A stretch of 64,000 nucleotides of DNA from NCBI RefSeq assembly GCF_008039565.1, contig NZ_VDUX01000001.1, positions 1-64,000 of the forward strand, read 5' to 3'. Shown here piece by piece: positions 157 to 63,416 of this stretch. A model generated the notes under the pieces. It saw nothing but the letters and a program-made list of their open reading frames with translations, made no database searches and was not told the origin of the DNA. Numbering within the stretch: the stretch's first letter is position 1; each line of letters starts with the position of its first letter. The DNA is from Aeromicrobium terrae (lineage in GTDB: Bacteria > Actinomycetota > Actinomycetes > Propionibacteriales > Nocardioidaceae). Position numbers and translations under genes: made by a program.

Positions 157-1416
157 CTAGCGCTGGTTCTCCTCCGCACGGCGCAGGAGGACGGAGCGTT
201 CGCCCTCGTTGCGGGTGCGGCCGGCAGCCTCGCGGAACGAGGCCGCAGCGTCGGCGTGCAGACCCGCACGCTCGAGCAGGTCGCCACGTACGCTCGGGAT
301 GAGGGGCGAGTCGCCGAGCGCGTCGGGCGCGACCGCCTCGAGGACGGCCAGCCCGGTGCCGGCGTCGTACGCGCGACCGTGCGCGACGGCCCGGTTCACC
401 TCGACGACGGGCCCGGGCGCAGCCTGGGCCAGCACGTCGTAGTACGAGGCGATGCGGCGCCAGTCGGTGTCCTCGGCGCGCTCGGCGCGGGCGTGCTCGG
501 CCGCGATGCAGGCCTGGAGGAAGTAGCGACCGACCGGCCGGCCACGGGCGGCCAGCTCCTCCGCCTTCTCCAGCGCCGCGATGCCGCGCCTGATCAGCAG
601 CTGGTTCCAGCGGGACCGGTCCTGCGCCTCGAGCAGGACGGGCACGCCGTCGTCGTCGAGCCGTGCCGGGATGCGCGATCCCTGGATCTCCACGAGCGCC
701 TGCAGGCCGAGCACGTCCGGCTCGTCGGTCACCTGAGCCGCGAGCAGTCGGGCCAGACGCATGCCCTCCTCGGCCAGGTCGGGGCGCATCCAGTCGTCGC
801 CGGCGGTGGCCGAGTAGCCCTCGTTGAACACGAGGTAGATCACGGCCAGCACGTCGTCCAGCCGGCGCTCGCGGTCCTGGCCGGTGGGCAGCTCGAACTC
901 GGCCCGGGCGTCGGACAAGGTCTTCTTGGCCCGCGAGATGCGCTGCCGCATCGTGGACTCCGACGAGAGGAACGCCCGTGCGATCTCGTCGGTGGTGAGT
1001 CCGCCGACGAGCCGGAGCGTCAGGGCGGTGCGCGACTCCGGCGTGAGCGACGGGTGGCAGCACAGGAACATCAGCCGGAGGACGTCGTCCTCGATGTGGT
1101 CGACCTGGGAGTCGAGATCGGGCATGCCGTCCTCCTCCTCCAGGTCGTGCGCCAGGTCAGCCGTCTTGCGGCGGAGCGTGTCGGCGCGCCGGAACTCGTC
1201 GATGCCGCGACGCTTCGCGGCGGTCATCAGCCAGGCGGCCGGGTTGGACGGGATGCCGTTCTCGGGCCACTGCTCCATGGCCGCCACGAGGGCGTCCTGG
1301 GCGAGGTCCTCGGCCATCGCGACGTCGCGCGTCATGCGCGTGAGGGCGCCGACCAGGCGAGCCGACTCGGCGCGCCAGGTCGTGGTGATCGCCTCGGAGG
1401 TCGGCCCGGTCTGCAC
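157..1416 (-). CDS. ECF42-type RNA polymerase sigma factor with C-terminal extension
   Basis: A 419-residue ECF sigma factor. Sigma region 2 covers about residues 10-85 (MAEDLAQDALVAAMEQW, then the region around RGIDEFRRADT), and region 4 is near 125-175. A long C-terminal part follows that resembles the DUF6596/TPR-like extension of the ECF42 group. These factors lack a classical anti-sigma factor and are paired with DGPF/YciI proteins; the gene immediately upstream on the same strand is exactly such a protein. The GTG start is supported by a TAGTGT box (1423-1428) six bases before it, the leaderless geometry seen repeatedly in this window. The target regulon is unknown. Confidence 0.9.
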   Translation of the reverse strand: MQTGPTSEAITTTWRAESARLVGALTRMTRDVAMAEDLAQDALVAAMEQWPENGIPSNPAAWLMTAAKRRGIDEFRRADTLRRKTADLAHDLEEEDGMPDLDSQVDHIEDDVLRLMFLCCHPSLTPESRTALTLRLVGGLTTDEIARAFLSSESTMRQRISRAKKTLSDARAEFELPTGQDRERRLDDVLAVIYLVFNEGYSATAGDDWMRPDLAEEGMRLARLLAAQVTDEPDVLGLQALVEIQGSRIPARLDDDGVPVLLEAQDRSRWNQLLIRRGIAALEKAEELAARGRPVGRYFLQACIAAEHARAERAEDTDWRRIASYYDVLAQAAPGPVVEVNRAVAHGRAYDAGTGLAVLEAVAPDALGDSPLIPSVRGDLLERAGLHADAAASFREAAGRTRNEGERSVLLRRAEENQR

Positions 1417-1449
1417 ACGGCAACACTAGGCCGACCTCCCGACGGTCGA

Positions 1450-1824
1450 TCAGCTCTCCGGCTCCTCCGGACCCTCGGAGATCTGCCGCAGCGTGGAGAC
1501 GACCGTGACCTCCGGCCAGTGCTCCGCGTGCAGGTCGGCGAACGTCTGGGTGTCGGCGATCGCCTCCTCCAGCGTGTCGTACTGCAGGAGCGACCAGCCG
1601 CCCACGACCTCCTTGCCCTCGGCGTAGGGGCCGTCGACGCGGGTGACCTCACCGTTCTTCACGACGAAGTTCACGGCGTCCTCCGTGCCGTACAGCCCGC
1701 CGCCGTCGATGAACACGCCCGACGCGGCCCGCTCCCCGATGTAGACGTCCATCGCCTCGAACAGCGACTTCGGCGGCGTGCCGATGTTCTCTTCCATCCT
1801 CACGAAACCCATGAATCGAGGCAT
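1450..1824 (-). CDS. YciI/DGPF-family protein, partner of the ECF42 sigma factor
   Basis: A small cytosolic alpha-beta protein of 124 residues with the YCII fold. The region around residues 80-100 (DGPYAEGKEVVGGW) carries the DGPF-type signature that gives the family its name. An earlier in-frame start exists at 1944, but I chose the ATG at 1824 because a strong AAAGGAG ribosome binding site ends seven bases before it. The gene lies 33 bases upstream of the ECF42 sigma gene on the same strand. ECF42 factors commonly control DGPF genes, so regulation by the neighbour is likely. The biochemical role of DGPF proteins is not established. Confidence 0.88.
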   Translation of the reverse strand: MPRFMGFVRMEENIGTPPKSLFEAMDVYIGERAASGVFIDGGGLYGTEDAVNFVVKNGEVTRVDGPYAEGKEVVGGWSLLQYDTLEEAIADTQTFADLHAEHWPEVTVVSTLRQISEGPEEPES

Positions 1825-2007
1825 CGTCAGCTCCTTTGTCCTTGGTGGTGCGGCGCCGCTGCTCGGCGCCTCTCGCCCGTACGTCGAACGAAAGCACCGT
1901 GGTGCGACATCCCCTCCGAAACTTTTCTGGTGGTCCCGATCCAACCAGGTGACGAGCTGGTCCGATTTCCGCTAGATCCTGTCGGTGCCGGCCGTCAGGA
2001 TGGAGCC

Positions 2008-3462
2008 ATGACGACAGCCATGGTGGAGGACCACGACCGGTGCTACCGCGCCGTCCGGTCGCGCGACGCGCGCTTCGACGGCGTGTTCTACACCGGCGTC
2101 CGCACCACCGGCATCTACTGCCGGCCGTCGTGCCCCGCCCGCACGCCGCACCAGCACAACGTCGAGTTCTTCCCGTCCGCTGCCGCAGCGCAGGAGGCCG
2201 GATTCCGCGCCTGCCGCCGCTGCCGGCCCGACACCACGCCGGGCTCGCCGGAGTGGAACTTGCGGGCCGACGCGGTCGCCCGGGCGATGCGACTGATCGG
2301 CGACGGTCTCGTCGAGCGGGAGGGGGTCGACGGCCTCGCGTCCCGCCTCGGCTTCAGCACCCGTCACGTCAACCGCATGCTCACCGCCGAGCTCGGCGCC
2401 GGTCCGCTCGCCCTGGCGCGCAGCCGACGCTCCCAGGCGGCTCGGGTCCTGATCGAGACCACCGACATGGCGATGGCCGACATCGCGTTCGCCGCGGGGT
2501 TCGCCTCGATCCGGCAGTTCAACGACTCCATCCGCACCGTGTACGGGCTCACGCCCACGGAGATGCGGGGCCGCCGCGGCGGCAAGACGTCCGGACGCCT
2601 CGCCATCCGACTGGCGGTCCGCCGGCCGTTCGACCCCGACGGCCTCCTCACGTTCCTGGGCGACCGGGCGATCGCCGGCGTCGAGCACGTCGAGGGACGG
2701 GTCTACGCCCGAATCCTGCGGCTCCCCAACGGCCTGGGTGCCGTGCGGCTGACGCTCCACGACGATCGCGTCGAGGCCGAGCTCGAGCTCGCCGACCTCC
2801 GTGACACGGCGGTCGCCGTCGAGCGCTGCCGGCGCCTGCTCGACCTGGACGCCGACCCGGTAGCCATCGGCGACGTGCTCGCCGCCGACCCGCTGCTCGC
2901 TCCGTCCGTCGCGGAGGTGCCCGGCATCCGGCTGCCCGGCCAGGTCGACGGCTTCGAGGTGGTCGTGCGGGCGATCGTGGGCCAGCAGGTCTCCGTCGCC
3001 GGGGCGCGCACCATCCTCGGCCGCTTCGCCGCCGCGTACGGCACGCCCGCCACGTTCGACCTCGCCGCCGAGCACGGCCTCACCCACGCGTTCGCCACGG
3101 CCGAGGCCATGGCCGACGCCGACGACACGGCGCTGAGCATGCCACGATCCCGGGCCCAGGCACTGATCGGCGTCGCCCGGTCCGTCGCCGCCGGCGAGCT
3201 CGACCTCGAACCCGGCGCCGATCGCGACGCCACCCACAAGGCCCTGCTGGGCCACCGGGGCATCGGGCCGTGGACGGCCGACTACGTCGTGATGCGGGCG
3301 TTCGGCCACCCGGACGTGATGCTCGAGACCGACTTGATCATCAAGCGCATGCTCGACCGCTACGGCGTCGACGCCGCGCGCACGGCCACCTGGCAACCCT
3401 GGCGGTCCTACGCCGCCCTGCACCTCTGGCGACTCGCCAGCACCCCGAAGGAGACGGCATGA
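2008..3462 (+). CDS. Ada-AlkA fusion: DNA-3-methyladenine glycosylase with Ada-type regulatory domain
   Basis: A 484-residue protein for repair of alkylated DNA. The N-terminal Ada zinc domain has Cys38, Cys42, Cys69 and Cys72, numbered as in E. coli Ada, where one cysteine accepts methyl from phosphotriesters. An AraC-type helix-turn-helix follows (about 95-190), then an AlkA N-terminal domain, then the HhH-GPD glycosylase (about 305-480). The hairpin GIGPWTADYVVMR and the catalytic Asp in LETDLIIK align with AlkA. The start at 2008 gives the Ada numbering and has GGATGGAG upstream. The stop overlaps the ogt start (ATGA), so the two are co-translated. Methylation of the Ada part probably activates the operon, by analogy with the adaptive response. 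Confidence 0.93.
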   Translation: MTTAMVEDHDRCYRAVRSRDARFDGVFYTGVRTTGIYCRPSCPARTPHQHNVEFFPSAAAAQEAGFRACRRCRPDTTPGSPEWNLRADAVARAMRLIGDGLVEREGVDGLASRLGFSTRHVNRMLTAELGAGPLALARSRRSQAARVLIETTDMAMADIAFAAGFASIRQFNDSIRTVYGLTPTEMRGRRGGKTSGRLAIRLAVRRPFDPDGLLTFLGDRAIAGVEHVEGRVYARILRLPNGLGAVRLTLHDDRVEAELELADLRDTAVAVERCRRLLDLDADPVAIGDVLAADPLLAPSVAEVPGIRLPGQVDGFEVVVRAIVGQQVSVAGARTILGRFAAAYGTPATFDLAAEHGLTHAFATAEAMADADDTALSMPRSRAQALIGVARSVAAGELDLEPGADRDATHKALLGHRGIGPWTADYVVMRAFGHPDVMLETDLIIKRMLDRYGVDAARTATWQPWRSYAALHLWRLASTPKETA

Positions 3463-55759: not shown

Positions 55760-56260
55760 ATGAGCATCCCGACCCGTGGCGTCTTGTACGTCCACTCCGC
55801 GCCCTCTGCGCTGTGCCCGCACGTCGAGTGGGCGGCCGCCGGCGTGCTCGGCGGCACCGTCGACGTCGACTGGGTGCCGCAGCCCGCCGAGACCGGCACC
55901 TACCGCACGGAGCTGTCCTGGCAGGCCGACGTCGGCAGCGCCGCGGCGCTCGCCTCCACGCTGCGCGGCTGGGAGATGCTGCGCTTCGAGGTCACCGAGG
56001 AGCCGACCGCCTCCAGCGAGGGCGCCCGGTACAGCTACACGCCCACGCTTGGCATCTTCCACGCCATGACCGGCCTGCACGGCGACGTGCTGATCCCGGA
56101 GGACCGGATCAAGGCCTTCCGGGTGAAGGCCGCACTCGGCGAGATCACGATGGACCAGGCGCTCGACGGCCTCCTCGGTGTCGCCTGGGACGCTGAGCTC
56201 GAGCCGTTCCGGCACGCCGGCTCCGGCGCCCCGGTGCGCTGGCTGCACCAGGTCATCTGA
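55760..56260 (+). CDS. DUF3145 family protein
   Basis: A 166-residue actinobacterial protein of unknown function, recognised by its N-terminus (TRGVLYVHSAPSALCPHVEW) and by the RYSYTPTLGIFHA core. GGAGG lies before the ATG. In Streptomyces this gene sits beside the fatty-acid synthase genes fabD-fabH-acpP-fabF downstream of aceE. Here only an acyl-carrier fusion remains between it and aceE. No catalytic motif is visible. Confidence 0.92.
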   Translation: MSIPTRGVLYVHSAPSALCPHVEWAAAGVLGGTVDVDWVPQPAETGTYRTELSWQADVGSAAALASTLRGWEMLRFEVTEEPTASSEGARYSYTPTLGIFHAMTGLHGDVLIPEDRIKAFRVKAALGEITMDQALDGLLGVAWDAELEPFRHAGSGAPVRWLHQVI

Positions 56261-56424: not shown

Positions 56425-57246
56425 TCAGCCGATCTGCACCGTCACCGACGGGGTCTCGAGGTTCGCGTCCTTCTGGACGACGCGGAAGTCGCGCTCGCCG
56501 GTGCGCGACGTGTAGATCTCGGTGCGGTACTTGCCGCTGCCGTCGCGGACCTTGGTGGTGACGGGGAAGTCGTCCCAGTCCTCGCCCTTGTCCCGGACCT
56601 GGACCTGGAGCTCGACGCCGCGGTCGAGCGTCGGGAAGCGGCCCTCCAGCGCGAACCGCTGGCCGGGGGACACCTGGGTGTCGGAGATGACGAGCGTCGG
56701 GTCCGGCTCGGCCGTGGAGTCCGGCTCGGGCTCGGGAGTGGCGGTCTCCGTGGGCGTCGGGGTGGGGGCCGGGGTCGTGGGCTGCGCGATGGGCGGCAGG
56801 TCGGTGGACCCGAGGCCAGTGGCGCTCACCAGGGCGGCGCCGCCGAGGCCGAGCACGATGCCGACCGCGGCGCCCGTGACGGCGAACCAGCCGGCGAATC
56901 GGCGTAGCGCCCGGCGGCGCTCGGGATCGGCGCTGATCCGCTGGGTGGGCGTGGGCGTCGCGCCCGCGTCGGCGAATCCCGCCGCGACGGGCGCGGGAGC
57001 CGCGCTCCCGGCGTGGTGCACGACCGCGGAGATCGCGTCTCCCACCGTGTGGAGCTCGTTGACGGTGTCGTCCTCGAGGTACAGGTCGAAGCGCCGGCCG
57101 AGCTCGTCAGCGATCTCCACGACGGCCAGCGAGTCGACGCCCAGGGCTTTCAGGCGCGCCTGGTCCTCGACGTCCTCGGGGTCGCACCCGACGACCGACA
57201 CGATGATGTCGGTCAGGACGGGGCGGACGTCGTCGGCGGAGGGCAC
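56425..57246 (-). CDS. acyl carrier protein fused to a transmembrane helix and extracellular beta domain
   Basis: A 273-residue protein of unusual design. Residues 5-78 are an acyl-carrier domain with the phosphopantetheine serine Ser39 in LGVDSLAVVEIADEL. A flexible linker leads to a basic stretch (PERRRALRRF) and one membrane helix (about 119-143). The far side has a Pro/Thr/Glu linker (151-184) and a beta-rich, Ig-like domain (about 185-273). Topology predicts the carrier domain in the cytosol and the beta domain outside. The GTG is preceded by TAGAAT with a six-base gap. It sits where acpP lies in the Streptomyces aceE-DUF3145 region. Function unknown. Confidence 0.85.
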   Translation of the reverse strand: MPSADDVRPVLTDIIVSVVGCDPEDVEDQARLKALGVDSLAVVEIADELGRRFDLYLEDDTVNELHTVGDAISAVVHHAGSAAPAPVAAGFADAGATPTPTQRISADPERRRALRRFAGWFAVTGAAVGIVLGLGGAALVSATGLGSTDLPPIAQPTTPAPTPTPTETATPEPEPDSTAEPDPTLVISDTQVSPGQRFALEGRFPTLDRGVELQVQVRDKGEDWDDFPVTTKVRDGSGKYRTEIYTSRTGERDFRVVQKDANLETPSVTVQIG

Positions 57247-57255
57247 CTGGTGATT

Positions 57256-58305
57256 CTACTGAGCGCCGGCGGGGACGGGCTCGGGATCGAGGTCGTCCTC
57301 GAGCCCGCGACGTCTGCGTCTGCCCCGGTTGCCGGTGGCCCAGGCGCCCAGTGAGACGGACATCCAGCCGATGACCGCGCCTGCGACGTCGTCGGCGATG
57401 TAGTGCCAGCCGAAGTAGATGGTGGCCGTCACGGTGATGCCGAGGAAGACCCACGCGAAGATCTGCAGGGCGGCGCGCTGACCCGTGCGGGACATGAACA
57501 GGGCGGCCGTCACGACCACGGAGACGTGCAGGGACGCGAAGCCCGCGATGCCGTAGATGGGGCCGTTCGCCGGGTCTGCTTTGGACTCCACCCCGTGCGA
57601 GAACAAGCTCTGCTGCAACGCCGTGACGCCGGTCTCCGGCAGGTCGGCGAAGGACTGCGGCTGCGCGAAGGCCGGGCCGAGCGTCGGCAGGGCGTAGTAG
57701 CTGATGACGCCGAGCACCCAGTTGAGGCTCACGGCCGTGGCGTACCAGGCCCCGACGGACAGGTTCCGGTCGAGGACGAGGACCGCACCGAGGGAGATCG
57801 GCACGAGGGTGAGGTAGCTGATGTAGGAGAACGCCAGGAAGTCCGCGACGATCCCGGTGCCGAGCAGGTCGTGCAGGAGGCTCGCCGGGTTGTGGCCGAA
57901 CATCAGCCAGTGGTCGAGGCGCAGCAGGTCGACGTCGAACAGCACGTCCTTGCGGATGACCGGGAGGAAGCTCTTCAGGTTCCGGTAGCTGACGTAGCAG
58001 GCGTAGAAGCTCAGCAGGCCGGTCGCGATGTAGATGACCCGCTTCCAGGTCCACTCCTCGCGGACGATCTCCCGGATGCCGGGGAACATCCGACGGAGCC
58101 CGTACCGCTTGATCGCCGGAGGGATGATGCCCGCGGCGAAGAACAGCAGGCCGAGCGCGGGGAGGCGGACGTACGCCGGGCCGAGGAAGCCCTCGGGGTC
58201 GCGCAGCGGCAGGTCCAGGGTCTGCGAGTAGACGATCGCCGTGACCGAGATGGCGACGGACACGAACACCACGAAGGTGTAGGGCCATCGACGCATGACC
58301 CACAT
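57256..58305 (-). CDS. PAP2-superfamily membrane protein
   Basis: A 349-residue integral membrane protein with about six to seven helices. The C-terminal half carries PAP2 motifs: GFASLHVSVVV (the SxH motif) and WHYIADDVAGAVIG (His-x-x-x-Asp). The N-terminal half (about 1-130) is extra. The pattern matches the PAP2 type found in inositol-phosphoceramide synthases and mycobacterial lipid phosphatases. It may dephosphorylate or transfer lipid head groups. It lies nine bases upstream of the acyl-carrier fusion, and the two may act together on lipids (inference). Confidence 0.87.
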   Translation of the reverse strand: MWVMRRWPYTFVVFVSVAISVTAIVYSQTLDLPLRDPEGFLGPAYVRLPALGLLFFAAGIIPPAIKRYGLRRMFPGIREIVREEWTWKRVIYIATGLLSFYACYVSYRNLKSFLPVIRKDVLFDVDLLRLDHWLMFGHNPASLLHDLLGTGIVADFLAFSYISYLTLVPISLGAVLVLDRNLSVGAWYATAVSLNWVLGVISYYALPTLGPAFAQPQSFADLPETGVTALQQSLFSHGVESKADPANGPIYGIAGFASLHVSVVVTAALFMSRTGQRAALQIFAWVFLGITVTATIYFGWHYIADDVAGAVIGWMSVSLGAWATGNRGRRRRRGLEDDLDPEPVPAGAQ

Positions 58306-58366: not shown

Positions 58367-61126
58367 TCAGGCGTCGCCGCCCTCCTGCGCGATGCCCGCG
58401 GTGGCGGTGGGATCGTCGATCTTCAGGTCCGTGAACGCCTGGCGCACGACGGACGGCTCGACGTGCGAGTGCTGCGCGAGCGTCTGCAGCACCGCGACGA
58501 CGATCGACTCCGCGTCGACCTGGAACGCGCGGCGGGCGGCCGCGCGCGTGTCGGCGAAGCCGAAGCCGTCGGTGCCGAGCGACTGCCACGGACCGGGAAC
58601 CCAGCGAGCGATCTGGTCGGGCACGGCGCGCATGTAGTCGCTCACGGCGACGGTGGCGGCGCTGCGATCCATCAGGGCCGTGGTGATCCACGGGACCTGC
58701 GTGTACTCGCCCGGGTGGTTCAGGTTCCACCGCTCGGCGTTGACGGCGTCGCGGGCGATCTCGTTCCACGACGTCACCGACCACACGTCGGCAGCGACGT
58801 CGTAGTTCTCCGCCAGCATCTCCTGAGCCTTGAGCGCCCACGGCACCGCGACGCCGGACGCCATGATCCGGGCGTTGATCGTGCCACCGGTCGCCTTCCG
58901 GAACAGGTAGGCGCCCTTGAGCAGGCTCTCGACGTCGAGCTCGTCCGGCTCCACCGGCTGGCTGATCGGCTCGTTGTAGACGGTGAGGTAGTAGATGACG
59001 TCCTCGCCGTGCGGGTGCTCGTCGGACGAGCCGTACATGCGACGCAGGCCGTCCTTGACGATGTGGCTGATCTCGAAGCCGTAGGCCGGGTCGTAGTGGA
59101 CGACCGCCGGGTTGGTCTGCGCGATCAGCGGCGAGTGTCCGTCGGCGTGCTGCAGACCCTCGCCGGTGAGCGTGGTGCGGCCGGCGGTGGCGCCGATGAG
59201 GAACCCGCGCGCGAGCTGGTCGGCCATCGCCCAGATCGAGTCGGCCGTCCGCTGGAAGCCGAACATCGAGTAGAAGAGGTAGACCGGGATCATCGGCTCG
59301 TCGTGGGTGGCGTACGCGCTGCCGGCAGCGATCGCCGACGCCATGGCGCCGGCCTCGCTGATGCCCTCGTGCAGCAGCTGGCCCTCCGTGGACTCCTTGT
59401 ACGCCAGCAGCAGCTTGCGGTCGACCGAGTCGTACGTCTGGCCGTGCGGGCTGTAGATCTTCGCCGACGGGAACATCGAGTCCATGCCGAACGTGCGGTA
59501 CTCGTCCGGCGCGATGGGCACGATGCGCGGGCCGACCTCCGGGTCCTTCATGAGGTCGCGGAGCAGGCGGACGAACGCCATCGTCGTGGCGATCTGCTGC
59601 TTGCCCGAGCCCTGCTTGAGGGCGGAGTACACGTCGTCTCCCGGCAGCTTCACCGGAGTCGGGTCGACCTTGCGCCGGGGGATCGATCCGCCGAGGGCGT
59701 CCCGGCGCGCCTTCATGTACTGGATCTCCTCGCTGTCGTTGCCCGGGTTGTAGAAGGGCGCGAGGTCGTCGCCGTCGATCTGCTCGTCGGAGATCGGGAT
59801 GTACAGGCGGTCGCGGAAGCCCTTGAGGTCGTCCTTGGTGAGCTTCTTCATCTGGTGCGTGGCGTTGCGGCCCTGGAACGACTCCAGCAGCCAGCCCTTG
59901 ATCGTGTGCGCGAGGATCACGGTCGGCTGGCCGGTGTGCTTCACGGCGGCGTCGAAGGCCGAGTAGACCTTCCGGTAGTCGTGGCCGCCGCGGGGGAGGC
60001 GCTCGATCTGCTCGTCGGTGAGGTGCTCGACCATCTTCGTGAGCCGCGGGTCCGGCCCGAAGAAGTGCTCGCGGTTGTAGGCGCCGGACTCCACGGACAG
60101 CGTCTGGAACTCGCCGTCGGGGGTGCGGTTCATCTGGTTGACGAGGACGCCGTCGGTGTCGCGGGCGAGCAGGTCGTCCCACTCGCGGCCCCAGACCACC
60201 TTGATGACGTTCCAGCCGGCGCCGCGGAAGAACGACTCCAGCTCCTGGATGATCTTGCCGTTGCCGCGGACGGGTCCGTCGAGCTGCTGCAGGTTGCAGT
60301 TGATGACGAACGTGAGGTTGTCGAGCTCCTCGCGCGCGGCCAGACCGATGGCGCCGAGCGACTCCGGCTCACCCATCTCGCCGTCGCCGAGGAACGCCCA
60401 GACGCGCTGCTCGCTGGTGTCCTTGATGCCACGGGCGTGGAGGTACCGGTTGAACCGCGCCTGGTAGATCGAGTTGATGGCGGCCAGGCCCATCGAGACC
60501 GTGGGGAACTCCCAGTAGTCGGGCATCAGCCGCGGGTGCGGGTACGACGACAGACCCTCGCCGGCACCGTGCGAGCGCTCCTGGCGGAACCGGTCGAGCT
60601 GCTGCTCGGTGAGGCGGCCCTCGAGGTACGAGCGGGCGTAGATGCCGGGAGCCGCGTGGCCCTGGAAGTAGATCTGGTCGCCACCGCCGGGGTGGCTCCG
60701 GCCGCGGAAGAAGTGGTTGAAGCCGACCTCGTACAGGCTGGCGGCCGACTGGTAGGTGGCGATGTGGCCGCCGACGCCCAGGCCGGGCCGGTTGGCGCGC
60801 GACACCATGACGGCGGCGTTCCACCGGATGAACGCCCGGATGCGGCGCTCGATGGCCTCGTTGCCGGGGAACCACGGCTCGCGCTCCGGGGGGATCGTGT
60901 TGATGAAGTCCGTGCTGCGGAGCGCCGGGACGCCGACGTTCTGCTCACGGGCCCGCTCGAGCAGCCTCAGCATCACGTAGCGCGCACGGGCTCGTCCGCG
61001 CTCGTCGACCATCTCGTCGAGCGAGCCGACCCATTCGGCCGTCTCCTCGGGATCGATGTCGGGGAGCTGCGTAGGCAGTCCCTCGTGGATGACTGATGGG
61101 CGATCGCCGCTCGAGCCTGTGGGCAT
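58367..61126 (-). CDS. aceE: pyruvate dehydrogenase E1 component (homodimeric type)
   Basis: A 919-residue thiamine-diphosphate enzyme that decarboxylates pyruvate to feed acetyl-CoA synthesis. The TPP motif is [10 protein letters not shown]...[19 protein letters not shown] lies a few bases before the ATG at 61126; a longer in-frame start at 61168 is less likely. The length fits homodimeric AceE. In Streptomyces aceE is followed by fatty-acid synthase genes. Here the minus-strand neighbours downstream are the PAP2 protein and the acyl-carrier fusion, with no fabD, fabH or fabF. Confidence 0.97.
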
Positions 61127-61247
61127 GGTGACTCCTGACGCGTCTTGTGGACTCCTCCATACTTCCACGTGGCATTCGCTACTGTGAGACCGGCAACAGC
61201 GCAGCCGAGGCTACTTTTCGGTAGCCACGACACCACGAGGAGGACCG

Positions 61248-62319: not shown

Positions 62320-62363
62320 CCGCTGCAGACAAGAGGGGCGGCTGTCGCCTAGATTTGGTTGCC

Positions 62364-63416
62364 ATGCGCATCGAATCTCGGGGGGTCCTGGCCGCGGTCC
62401 TGACGGTGTTCACCCTGGTGGGGGCGGGTCTCCTCGCCGTCGCCTCGCCCGCAGGAGCCGCCACCGCGAACATCTCGGCGGAGTGCACGCCCGACGGGAA
62501 CAAGCTGACGGTCGAGCTGTCCGGCTACAACAGCGGGAACCCCAGCACGGTCGTGCTCTACATCAACGACTCGGTCTTCATCGCCGCGGGCTTCTTCGAG
62601 GGCTTCAGCGGGTCGTACTCCGCCGACCCGACCATCGACGTCACGTGGAAGGTGCAGGTCACCTCGTCGGACGACCCCGACGGCACCACGGGTGCCACGT
62701 TCACCAAGACCATCTCGGTGGATGCGTGCGTCTCCTCCGTGACGCCCCAGGACCCGACCGTGACCCAGGCGCAGTGTTCCGGGCCCGGTGAGCACTCGGA
62801 CCCGGTCGTGACCTTCGCGACCGGCCCCGACCACGTCACCTACGACTACGACGACGCGACGCATCTGGTCACCGCGACGGCCGTCGCCACGAGCGACATG
62901 ACGTACCGCTTCGACACCGTCCCCGCGGGGTGGACCAAGGTCGACGACACGCACGCGACGTTCGAGGTCACGCTGACCGACCCGGGCACGTGCATCGTGG
63001 AGGTGACACCGACGCCTCCGACCGTCGTCCCGGCGCAGACCTGTGGCGACGACGTGCTCAACGTCCCGGCCGACACCGCTGGGATCACGTACACCCGGGC
63101 CGACGACGGGTCGTCGGTGACGGCGACCGCCGGGACGGGATACGAGCTTCCGGGCGGCGCCAGGAGCCAGACTTGGACGAACCGCGTCGACTACGAGTAC
63201 GACACCGTCGCCAACGGCGGCGCCGAGGCGTGTCCCGACCCGCCGGGGGACCCCGACGACCCCGGAGTGTCCGACAGCAGCGGGCCGGCGGCCGACATCT
63301 CCGACAGCAGCGGGGTTCTGCCGGACACCGGCTCGTCGATGACGCCCGTCGTTCTCGGGATTGCTCTCGCGCTGCTGGTCGGGGGTTGCCTCGTCGTCCG
63401 TCGACGCCTGACCTGA
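62364..63416 (+). CDS. LPDTG-anchored secreted surface protein
   Basis: A 350-residue secreted protein. The signal peptide is about 1-32 (AAVLTVFTLVGAGLLAV, then an Ala-rich cleavage region). The mature part is beta-rich and Thr/Asp-rich with scattered cysteines. It ends in a Ser/Pro/Asp-rich stalk, the sortase motif LPDTG, a hydrophobic helix and a basic tail (RRRLT). It should be covalently attached to the cell wall by a sortase encoded elsewhere. TAGATT lies eight bases before the ATG. The function is unknown; adhesion or envelope structure are possibilities. Confidence 0.87.
   Translation: MRIESRGVLAAVLTVFTLVGAGLLAVASPAGAATANISAECTPDGNKLTVELSGYNSGNPSTVVLYINDSVFIAAGFFEGFSGSYSADPTIDVTWKVQVTSSDDPDGTTGATFTKTISVDACVSSVTPQDPTVTQAQCSGPGEHSDPVVTFATGPDHVTYDYDDATHLVTATAVATSDMTYRFDTVPAGWTKVDDTHATFEVTLTDPGTCIVEVTPTPPTVVPAQTCGDDVLNVPADTAGITYTRADDGSSVTATAGTGYELPGGARSQTWTNRVDYEYDTVANGGAEACPDPPGDPDDPGVSDSSGPAADISDSSGVLPDTGSSMTPVVLGIALALLVGGCLVVRRRLT

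Follow-up and report, generated by a model that had tools for sequence, protein, structure and literature searches.

The window, by which we mean the whole stretch of 64,000 nt of Aeromicrobium terrae DNA analysed here, carries on its reverse strand an open reading frame of 273 aa with a GTG start (57246..56425), which joins an acyl carrier protein (ACP), a basic linker, a membrane helix, a Pro/Thr/Glu-rich linker and an Ig-like beta domain in one gene (56425..57246). Upstream of it, on the same strand, lie a PAP2_3 membrane enzyme recognized by a profile match (57256..58305) and then aceE (58367..61168), the two neighbours that a first-pass annotation of this DNA had reported. On the other side, on the forward strand, lies a DUF3145 gene (55760..56260), which was placed by tblastn with its start set by eye and is named after a PF11343 match in its orthologue at locus L085 rather than in the window gene. 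Both aceE and DUF3145 mark boundaries of a FAS-II gene cluster in related genera. Farther along the window (62355–63416, forward strand), a 353-aa protein looks secreted and, by eye, ends in sortase-anchored style, with LPDTG, a hydrophobic stretch and an arginine end.

Architecture of the fused carrier

The acyl-carrier domain (residues 1–78; 57013..57246, reverse strand) matches the PF00550 PP-binding profile over residues 11–72 (41.6 bits; cut-off 20.8), and the expected phosphopantetheine site, Ser39 (codon TCG; 57130..57132, reverse strand), sits within a GVDSL motif. An AlphaFold2 model built from 20 aligned sequences had a mean pLDDT of 81.9, with ten-residue blocks at 89–97 over residues 1–80 and at 94–97 from residue 181 on. 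The first of these parts is helical, and its structural matches in Foldseek included the ACP of Bacillus subtilis (2x2b; TMt 0.90, 39% identity) and the ACP of an AcpS complex (1f80; TMt 0.89). The second, the beta domain (residues 183–273; 56428..56700, reverse strand), has no Pfam match above cut-off and gave Ig-like matches with TMt of about 0.4–0.6.

Between the two the model places a helix with a basic N-terminal end (residues 108–142; 56821..56925, reverse strand), flanked by linkers that mostly fall below a pLDDT of 65, including the Pro/Thr/Glu-rich one (residues 143–182; 56701..56820, reverse strand); with a pTM of 0.41, the model does not define the relative placing of ACP, helix and beta parts. 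The helix contains the only hydrophobic stretch of the protein (residues 121–141, mean hydropathy 1.95); the 15 residues preceding it contain five Lys or Arg, the 15 that follow none. This excess before the helix recurs in all 32 fused sequences, so by the charge rule the topology is predicted to be N-in/C-out, with the ACP facing the cytoplasm, where phosphopantetheinyl transferases act, and the second linker and beta domain outside. The earlier description of an acyl-carrier domain with an intact serine, joined through a basic segment and one membrane helix to a beta domain predicted to lie outside, thus holds at each point, on profile score, hydropathy, charge and the AlphaFold2 model. The complete architecture recurs in 32 fused loci and is therefore not a product of chance.

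The carrier resembles AcpP, as known from B. subtilis (2x2b) and C. acnes (8yg0), in its ACP fold, in the Asp-Ser-Leu site and in standing at the acpP position of the genome. It departs from AcpP in being fused to a helix and beta domain, in standing apart from any FAS-II cluster and in an NCBIfam score below cut-off. Its helix II surface has also changed: residues 51 and 52 are Arg, each in 28 of the 32 fused rows, whereas Glu-Lys stands there in three acpP sequences from the family, which is in line with a new partner.

Distribution and history of the locus

Homologues were searched for in 118 genomes, among them the window's own and 48 others of Aeromicrobium, and 105 gave a match. A scan of contigs with two short patterns returned 20 loci, 17 labelled Aeromicrobium and three labelled with a higher group only; it is no census, having missed some of the relatives found by the 118-genome search. 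Sixty loci were compared by tblastn mapping. Fifty loci were classified, as 32 fused (31 Aeromicrobium, window included, and G062), three split, 13 without ACP and two outgroups (L083, L086).

Outside Aeromicrobium, five loci from genera of the same family (L083, L085, L087, L095, L096) have a FAS-II cluster in the interval between DUF3145 and aceE, comprising a carboxyltransferase gene, fabF, acpP, fabH, fabD and a regulator of PucR type, as named by Pfam in L085. Three of these loci (L083, L085, L087) also encode, between this cluster and DUF3145, a stand-alone membrane protein resembling the C-terminal half of the fusion. No fabD, fabH or fabF match was found by tblastn in the fetched 8–19 kb of the 31 fused Aeromicrobium loci, window included. 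Aeromicrobium loci retain the beta protein, and one clade also retains the ACP, the two forming a single gene; in the ACP-less relatives, as in some FAS-II genera, the beta domain is part of a stand-alone membrane protein.

The distribution of the type I synthase complements this picture. A 600-aa FAS-I probe matched 47 of the 49 Aeromicrobium genomes (the two misses are 58% and 88% complete) and also G052, G062, G067 and G068, and it found no match in the FAS-II-cluster genomes G049, G053, G056, G060 and G063. The window genome encodes its FAS-I as one 3,029-aa ORF with an AcpS gene adjoining. Two FAS-I-like matches were seen in G062 (65% and 67%) and three in G026 (one at 47%), both draft assemblies with 8% contamination.

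The locus of G068 (L086), from another genus, is ordered beta protein, separate 91-aa ACP, PucR regulator, hydrolase, PAP2, aceE, and by this gene order it is an intermediate between the FAS-II cluster locus and the fused locus. Its ACP reads GMDAV, Ala replacing the attachment serine. The first-pass annotation had proposed that homologues losing the serine while keeping the rest would speak against its reading; all 35 fused or re-split copies keep the serine, and the loss occurs only in this separate, decayed homologue. Taken together, the fusion most likely arose while a FAS-II cluster was collapsing in a lineage with FAS-I; the direction of change is read from the outgroups. Its place near aceE would then follow from the ancestral cluster, which adjoins aceE in related genera.

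Descent of the fused carrier from acpP, which we infer, rests mainly on position: it lies between DUF3145 and aceE, as acpP does in FAS-II genera, and its best NCBIfam acyl carrier protein equivalog gives 38.9 bits against a cut-off of 84, a model with which the acpP of L085 scores 128. That same acpP is its closest pairwise match outside the fusion family (39%, 56.6 bits). An ACP tree of 80 columns, with long branches and three acpP rows, did not resolve descent and is excluded from the evidence. The AcpM model NF040636 gave 35.4 bits, below its cut-off of 146. The AcpP equivalog, moreover, describes a stand-alone soluble protein, and here the helix at residues 108–142 belongs to the same ORF; within Aeromicrobium, a stand-alone ACP occurs only in the three re-split genomes.

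A tree of aceE (53 rows; L080 was excluded because its row was too short) united the 13 ACP-less genomes in one clade (support 99) and placed fused and split genomes together (support 94, drawn open). The split ACPs (G012 with G030; G003) are read as secondary fissions, because two changes are needed inside the fused group. The ACP-less beta proteins have N-termini like those of the FAS-II genera in length, which suggests that they were never fused.

Selection, AcpS and a proposed role

Ser39 and Asp38 are invariant in the 32 fused sequences, and the serine is also present in the three split ACPs. Pooled dN/dS was 0.17 for the ACP, 0.19 for the helix, 0.22 for the beta domain and 0.32 and 0.30 for the linkers, the former value belonging to the linker that adjoins the ACP; the pooling covers 14 hand-picked close pairs that are not mutually independent. 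Of the five segments it is the ACP that ranks highest in mean pairwise identity and lowest in pooled dN/dS, and judged by these substitution patterns the domain is under purifying selection.

An enzyme that may modify the carrier has a largely matching distribution. A gene for AcpS stands beside nnrD, in the order glmS-acpS-nnrD, in 30 of the 32 genomes with a fusion-type ACP and in none of the 13 without one. This count leaves out G017, whose locus lies at a contig end (glmS–nnrD gap 6 nt), G015, which is 58% complete with its locus not found (acpS is beside nnrD there), and G031 and G046, which have no nnrD match; across the genus, PPTases (PF01648) were found in 46 and nnrD (PF03853) in 47 of the 49 genomes. 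In 11 of the 13 ACP-less genomes glmS and nnrD are separated by 6–8 nt, and in the other two (G009, G032) by 285 nt with no AcpS match. The two exceptions among the fused genomes, G005 (L140) and G029 (L141), keep the ACP, with acpS absent between glmS and nnrD (gaps of 105 and 128 nt), and have four and three other PPTase matches, respectively. The close relative G040 retains acpS. In the window genome, the AcpS at nnrD matches NCBIfam NF000832 best, as against NF000831 for the one beside FAS-I.

Since the ACP-less genomes form one clade, the contrast of 30/32 with 0/13 represents one co-loss rather than 13, and for the same reason a Fisher value for ACP against acpS is not used. The genes for ACP and AcpS are unlinked, and on that one occasion they may have been lost together by coincidence. 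The pattern nonetheless supports a functional pair of ACP and nnrD-linked acpS, by the presence and absence of genes and not by weight of numbers.

We consider it reasonably probable, taking the composite as a whole, that a FAS-II ACP was retained and turned into a membrane-tethered holo-carrier for an acyl-transfer step at the membrane, and we hold the acyl-transfer part less firmly than that. An Aeromicrobium lineage with FAS-I would have lost fabD, fabH and fabF beside aceE; the ACP of the lost FAS-II would have survived in one clade and fused to a single-pass membrane protein encoded at the other side of the cluster. Ser39 would still be made holo, with the AcpS retained at glmS-acpS-nnrD as the most likely enzyme, and the holo-ACP would sit on the cytoplasmic side of the membrane. 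Its most likely task at this site would be to deliver acyl or other thioester-bound groups to a putative membrane-bound acyltransferase or ligase, or to receive them from it, while the Ig-like domain outside may keep an older, independent envelope role. Anchoring would not be strictly required, because the re-split copies (G012 with G030; G003) free the ACP from the helix. Put forward more tentatively, and in our view well short of probable, is that the ACP and its own AcpS were recruited into a new membrane-bound carrier system in which cytoplasmic acyl thioesters are coupled to the extracytoplasmic Ig-like domain; if true, the two would form an envelope acyl-transfer device of an undescribed kind.

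Could the ACP half instead be a neutral leftover, decaying while selection on the beta-domain membrane protein carries it along? The 13 genomes of a sister clade do without the ACP, the G068 homologue has no serine, and none of the ACP-using enzymes that we looked for (see below) turned up as a partner. Decay is nevertheless hard to reconcile with a serine present in 35 of 35 copies, re-split ACPs included, with an ACP that is the best conserved of the five segments and has the lowest dN/dS, and with an acpS kept in 30 of 32 ACP-bearing genomes; we regard the leftover reading as unlikely.

Neighbours, candidate partners and known carrier systems

A single chain predicted to cross the membrane, conserved in its inner as in its outer domain, also invites the idea of a transmembrane sensor, in which the Ig-like domain outside reads the acylation state of the ACP inside, or the reverse; AcpP–SpoT is a known case of an ACP reporting fatty-acid supply. 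Yet the re-split copies break the covalent link, the linkers are less conserved and modelled with low confidence, and ACP-less genomes have the outside protein by itself, all of which makes signalling through the fusion distinctly improbable.

The first-pass annotation had grouped the gene with PAP2 and aceE as a lipid-modification or lipid-sensing unit. In the window the ACP start follows the PAP2 stop by 9 nt on the same strand, which makes co-translation plausible there. That annotation had asked whether the two always lie side by side; they are direct neighbours in only three of the 32 fused loci. In the other 29 the ACP start lies 965–1,099 nt from the PAP2 stop, and an alpha/beta hydrolase gene on the opposite strand fills the gap in every case. 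Of the 50 loci, 47 have such a hydrolase separating PAP2 from the beta protein; it is absent in the window, G010 and G038, from which we infer that the window's 9-nt spacing came about by loss of the hydrolase gene. PAP2 is present in all 50 classified loci, and the 13 without ACP have both PAP2 and aceE. Among the FAS-II genera the position of PAP2 varies: it adjoins aceE in L083 and L087, lies elsewhere in L085 and has no tblastn match in the L095 and L096 loci. We therefore give the lipid unit little credence, and the earlier interpretation as a whole is partly supported.

The usual users of free ACP include FabH, PlsX, acyl-ACP desaturase and LipB. Neither PlsX nor acyl-ACP desaturase was found in any of the 49 Aeromicrobium genomes. 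The FabH domain PF08541 gave matches in nine of the 49, four of them above cut-off: G003, G012 and G030, all split, and G035, a fused close relative. FabH was rejected as a partner, as the proteins scanned in G030 (L158, 5009–6621) and G003 (L161, 5237–6322) match chalcone/stilbene synthase domains better; judged by these domains they are type III PKS, enzymes that use CoA thioesters. In G030 the PKS gene is followed by one for an ICMT-family methyltransferase. Least credible of all is an octanoyl donor for lipoate synthesis via LipB. Such a role would account for the nearness to aceE and fits the presence of LipB in 48 of the 49 genomes, window genome included; we dropped it since LipB is also kept, without the ACP, in all 13 ACP-less genomes.

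Carriers that serve membrane acyltransferases, DltC among them, are soluble. By analogy with these, the carrier proposed here would hand its load to a membrane enzyme; unlike them, it would be covalently anchored, through its predicted helix. In the open-access literature, outside which most subscription journals fall, we found no membrane-anchored, -bound or -tethered or transmembrane acyl carrier (the phrase 'membrane-associated acyl carrier' does occur), and in the open-access literature searched there was nothing on the subject of fatty acid synthase and acyl carrier protein in Aeromicrobium.

Two other actinobacterial systems offer a comparison. For mycobacteria, the gene table consulted lists acpM (Rv2244) with kasA, kasB and fabD under FAS-II, and also includes acpS (Rv2523c) and fas-I (Rv2524c) (PMC8733736). 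As far as that table goes, AcpM, like the Aeromicrobium ACP, is a FAS-II-type ACP in a FAS-I organism; it stands with a FAS-II gene set, whereas the Aeromicrobium locus is without fab genes. The sections of the same paper used here describe Corynebacterium as having FAS-I, with acpS proximal to fas, no FAS-II genes and no AcpM in any of the strains it examined (PMC8733736). On that description Corynebacterium is like Aeromicrobium in having FAS-I, in the absence of FAS-II genes and in an acpS near fas, and differs in that a clade of Aeromicrobium keeps a fused ACP and a second AcpS.

Once FAS-I has replaced FAS-II, neither a free ACP nor a second AcpS should be of any use. Three outcomes are seen: absence of both genes (13 genomes), a decayed ACP whose serine is gone (G068), and fusion with the serine retained and AcpS present in 30 of 32 genomes. 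The last points to a task for the ACP outside fatty-acid synthesis. It seems that a small fatty-acid carrier outlived its enzyme set and, keeping an intact active site, became part of a membrane protein encoded nearby; the joined carrier probably serves a new purpose at the cell membrane.

Across Aeromicrobium, PF00550 matches 37 of the 49 genomes and gives no match in 12. In the window genome the fusion ACP, again above cut-off in the whole-genome search, is one of two places matched. A PF00550 protein of NRPS size (about 1,300 aa) occurs in many ACP-bearing genomes and was set aside as a general partner, the window genome being without it. In eight genomes the fusion ACP is the sole PF00550 match, that is, the only detected carrier, as the profile misses divergent ones; in these a clean genetic test should be possible. 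One such divergent carrier is an 82-aa protein of G041 (L130, 3670–7287; PF00550 17.2 bits, below cut-off), a genome without the membrane ACP, and it lies near a gene that by eye is asparagine-synthetase-like and near a PPTase match. In the window genome itself, locus L002 (C6:20757-20885; ORF 553..2997, reverse strand) encodes an 814-aa protein in which an AMP-binding ligase, a carrier domain and a membrane part of several helices can be read by eye, and PF00550 matches in frames of 852–900 aa in five other Aeromicrobium genomes may be of this kind.
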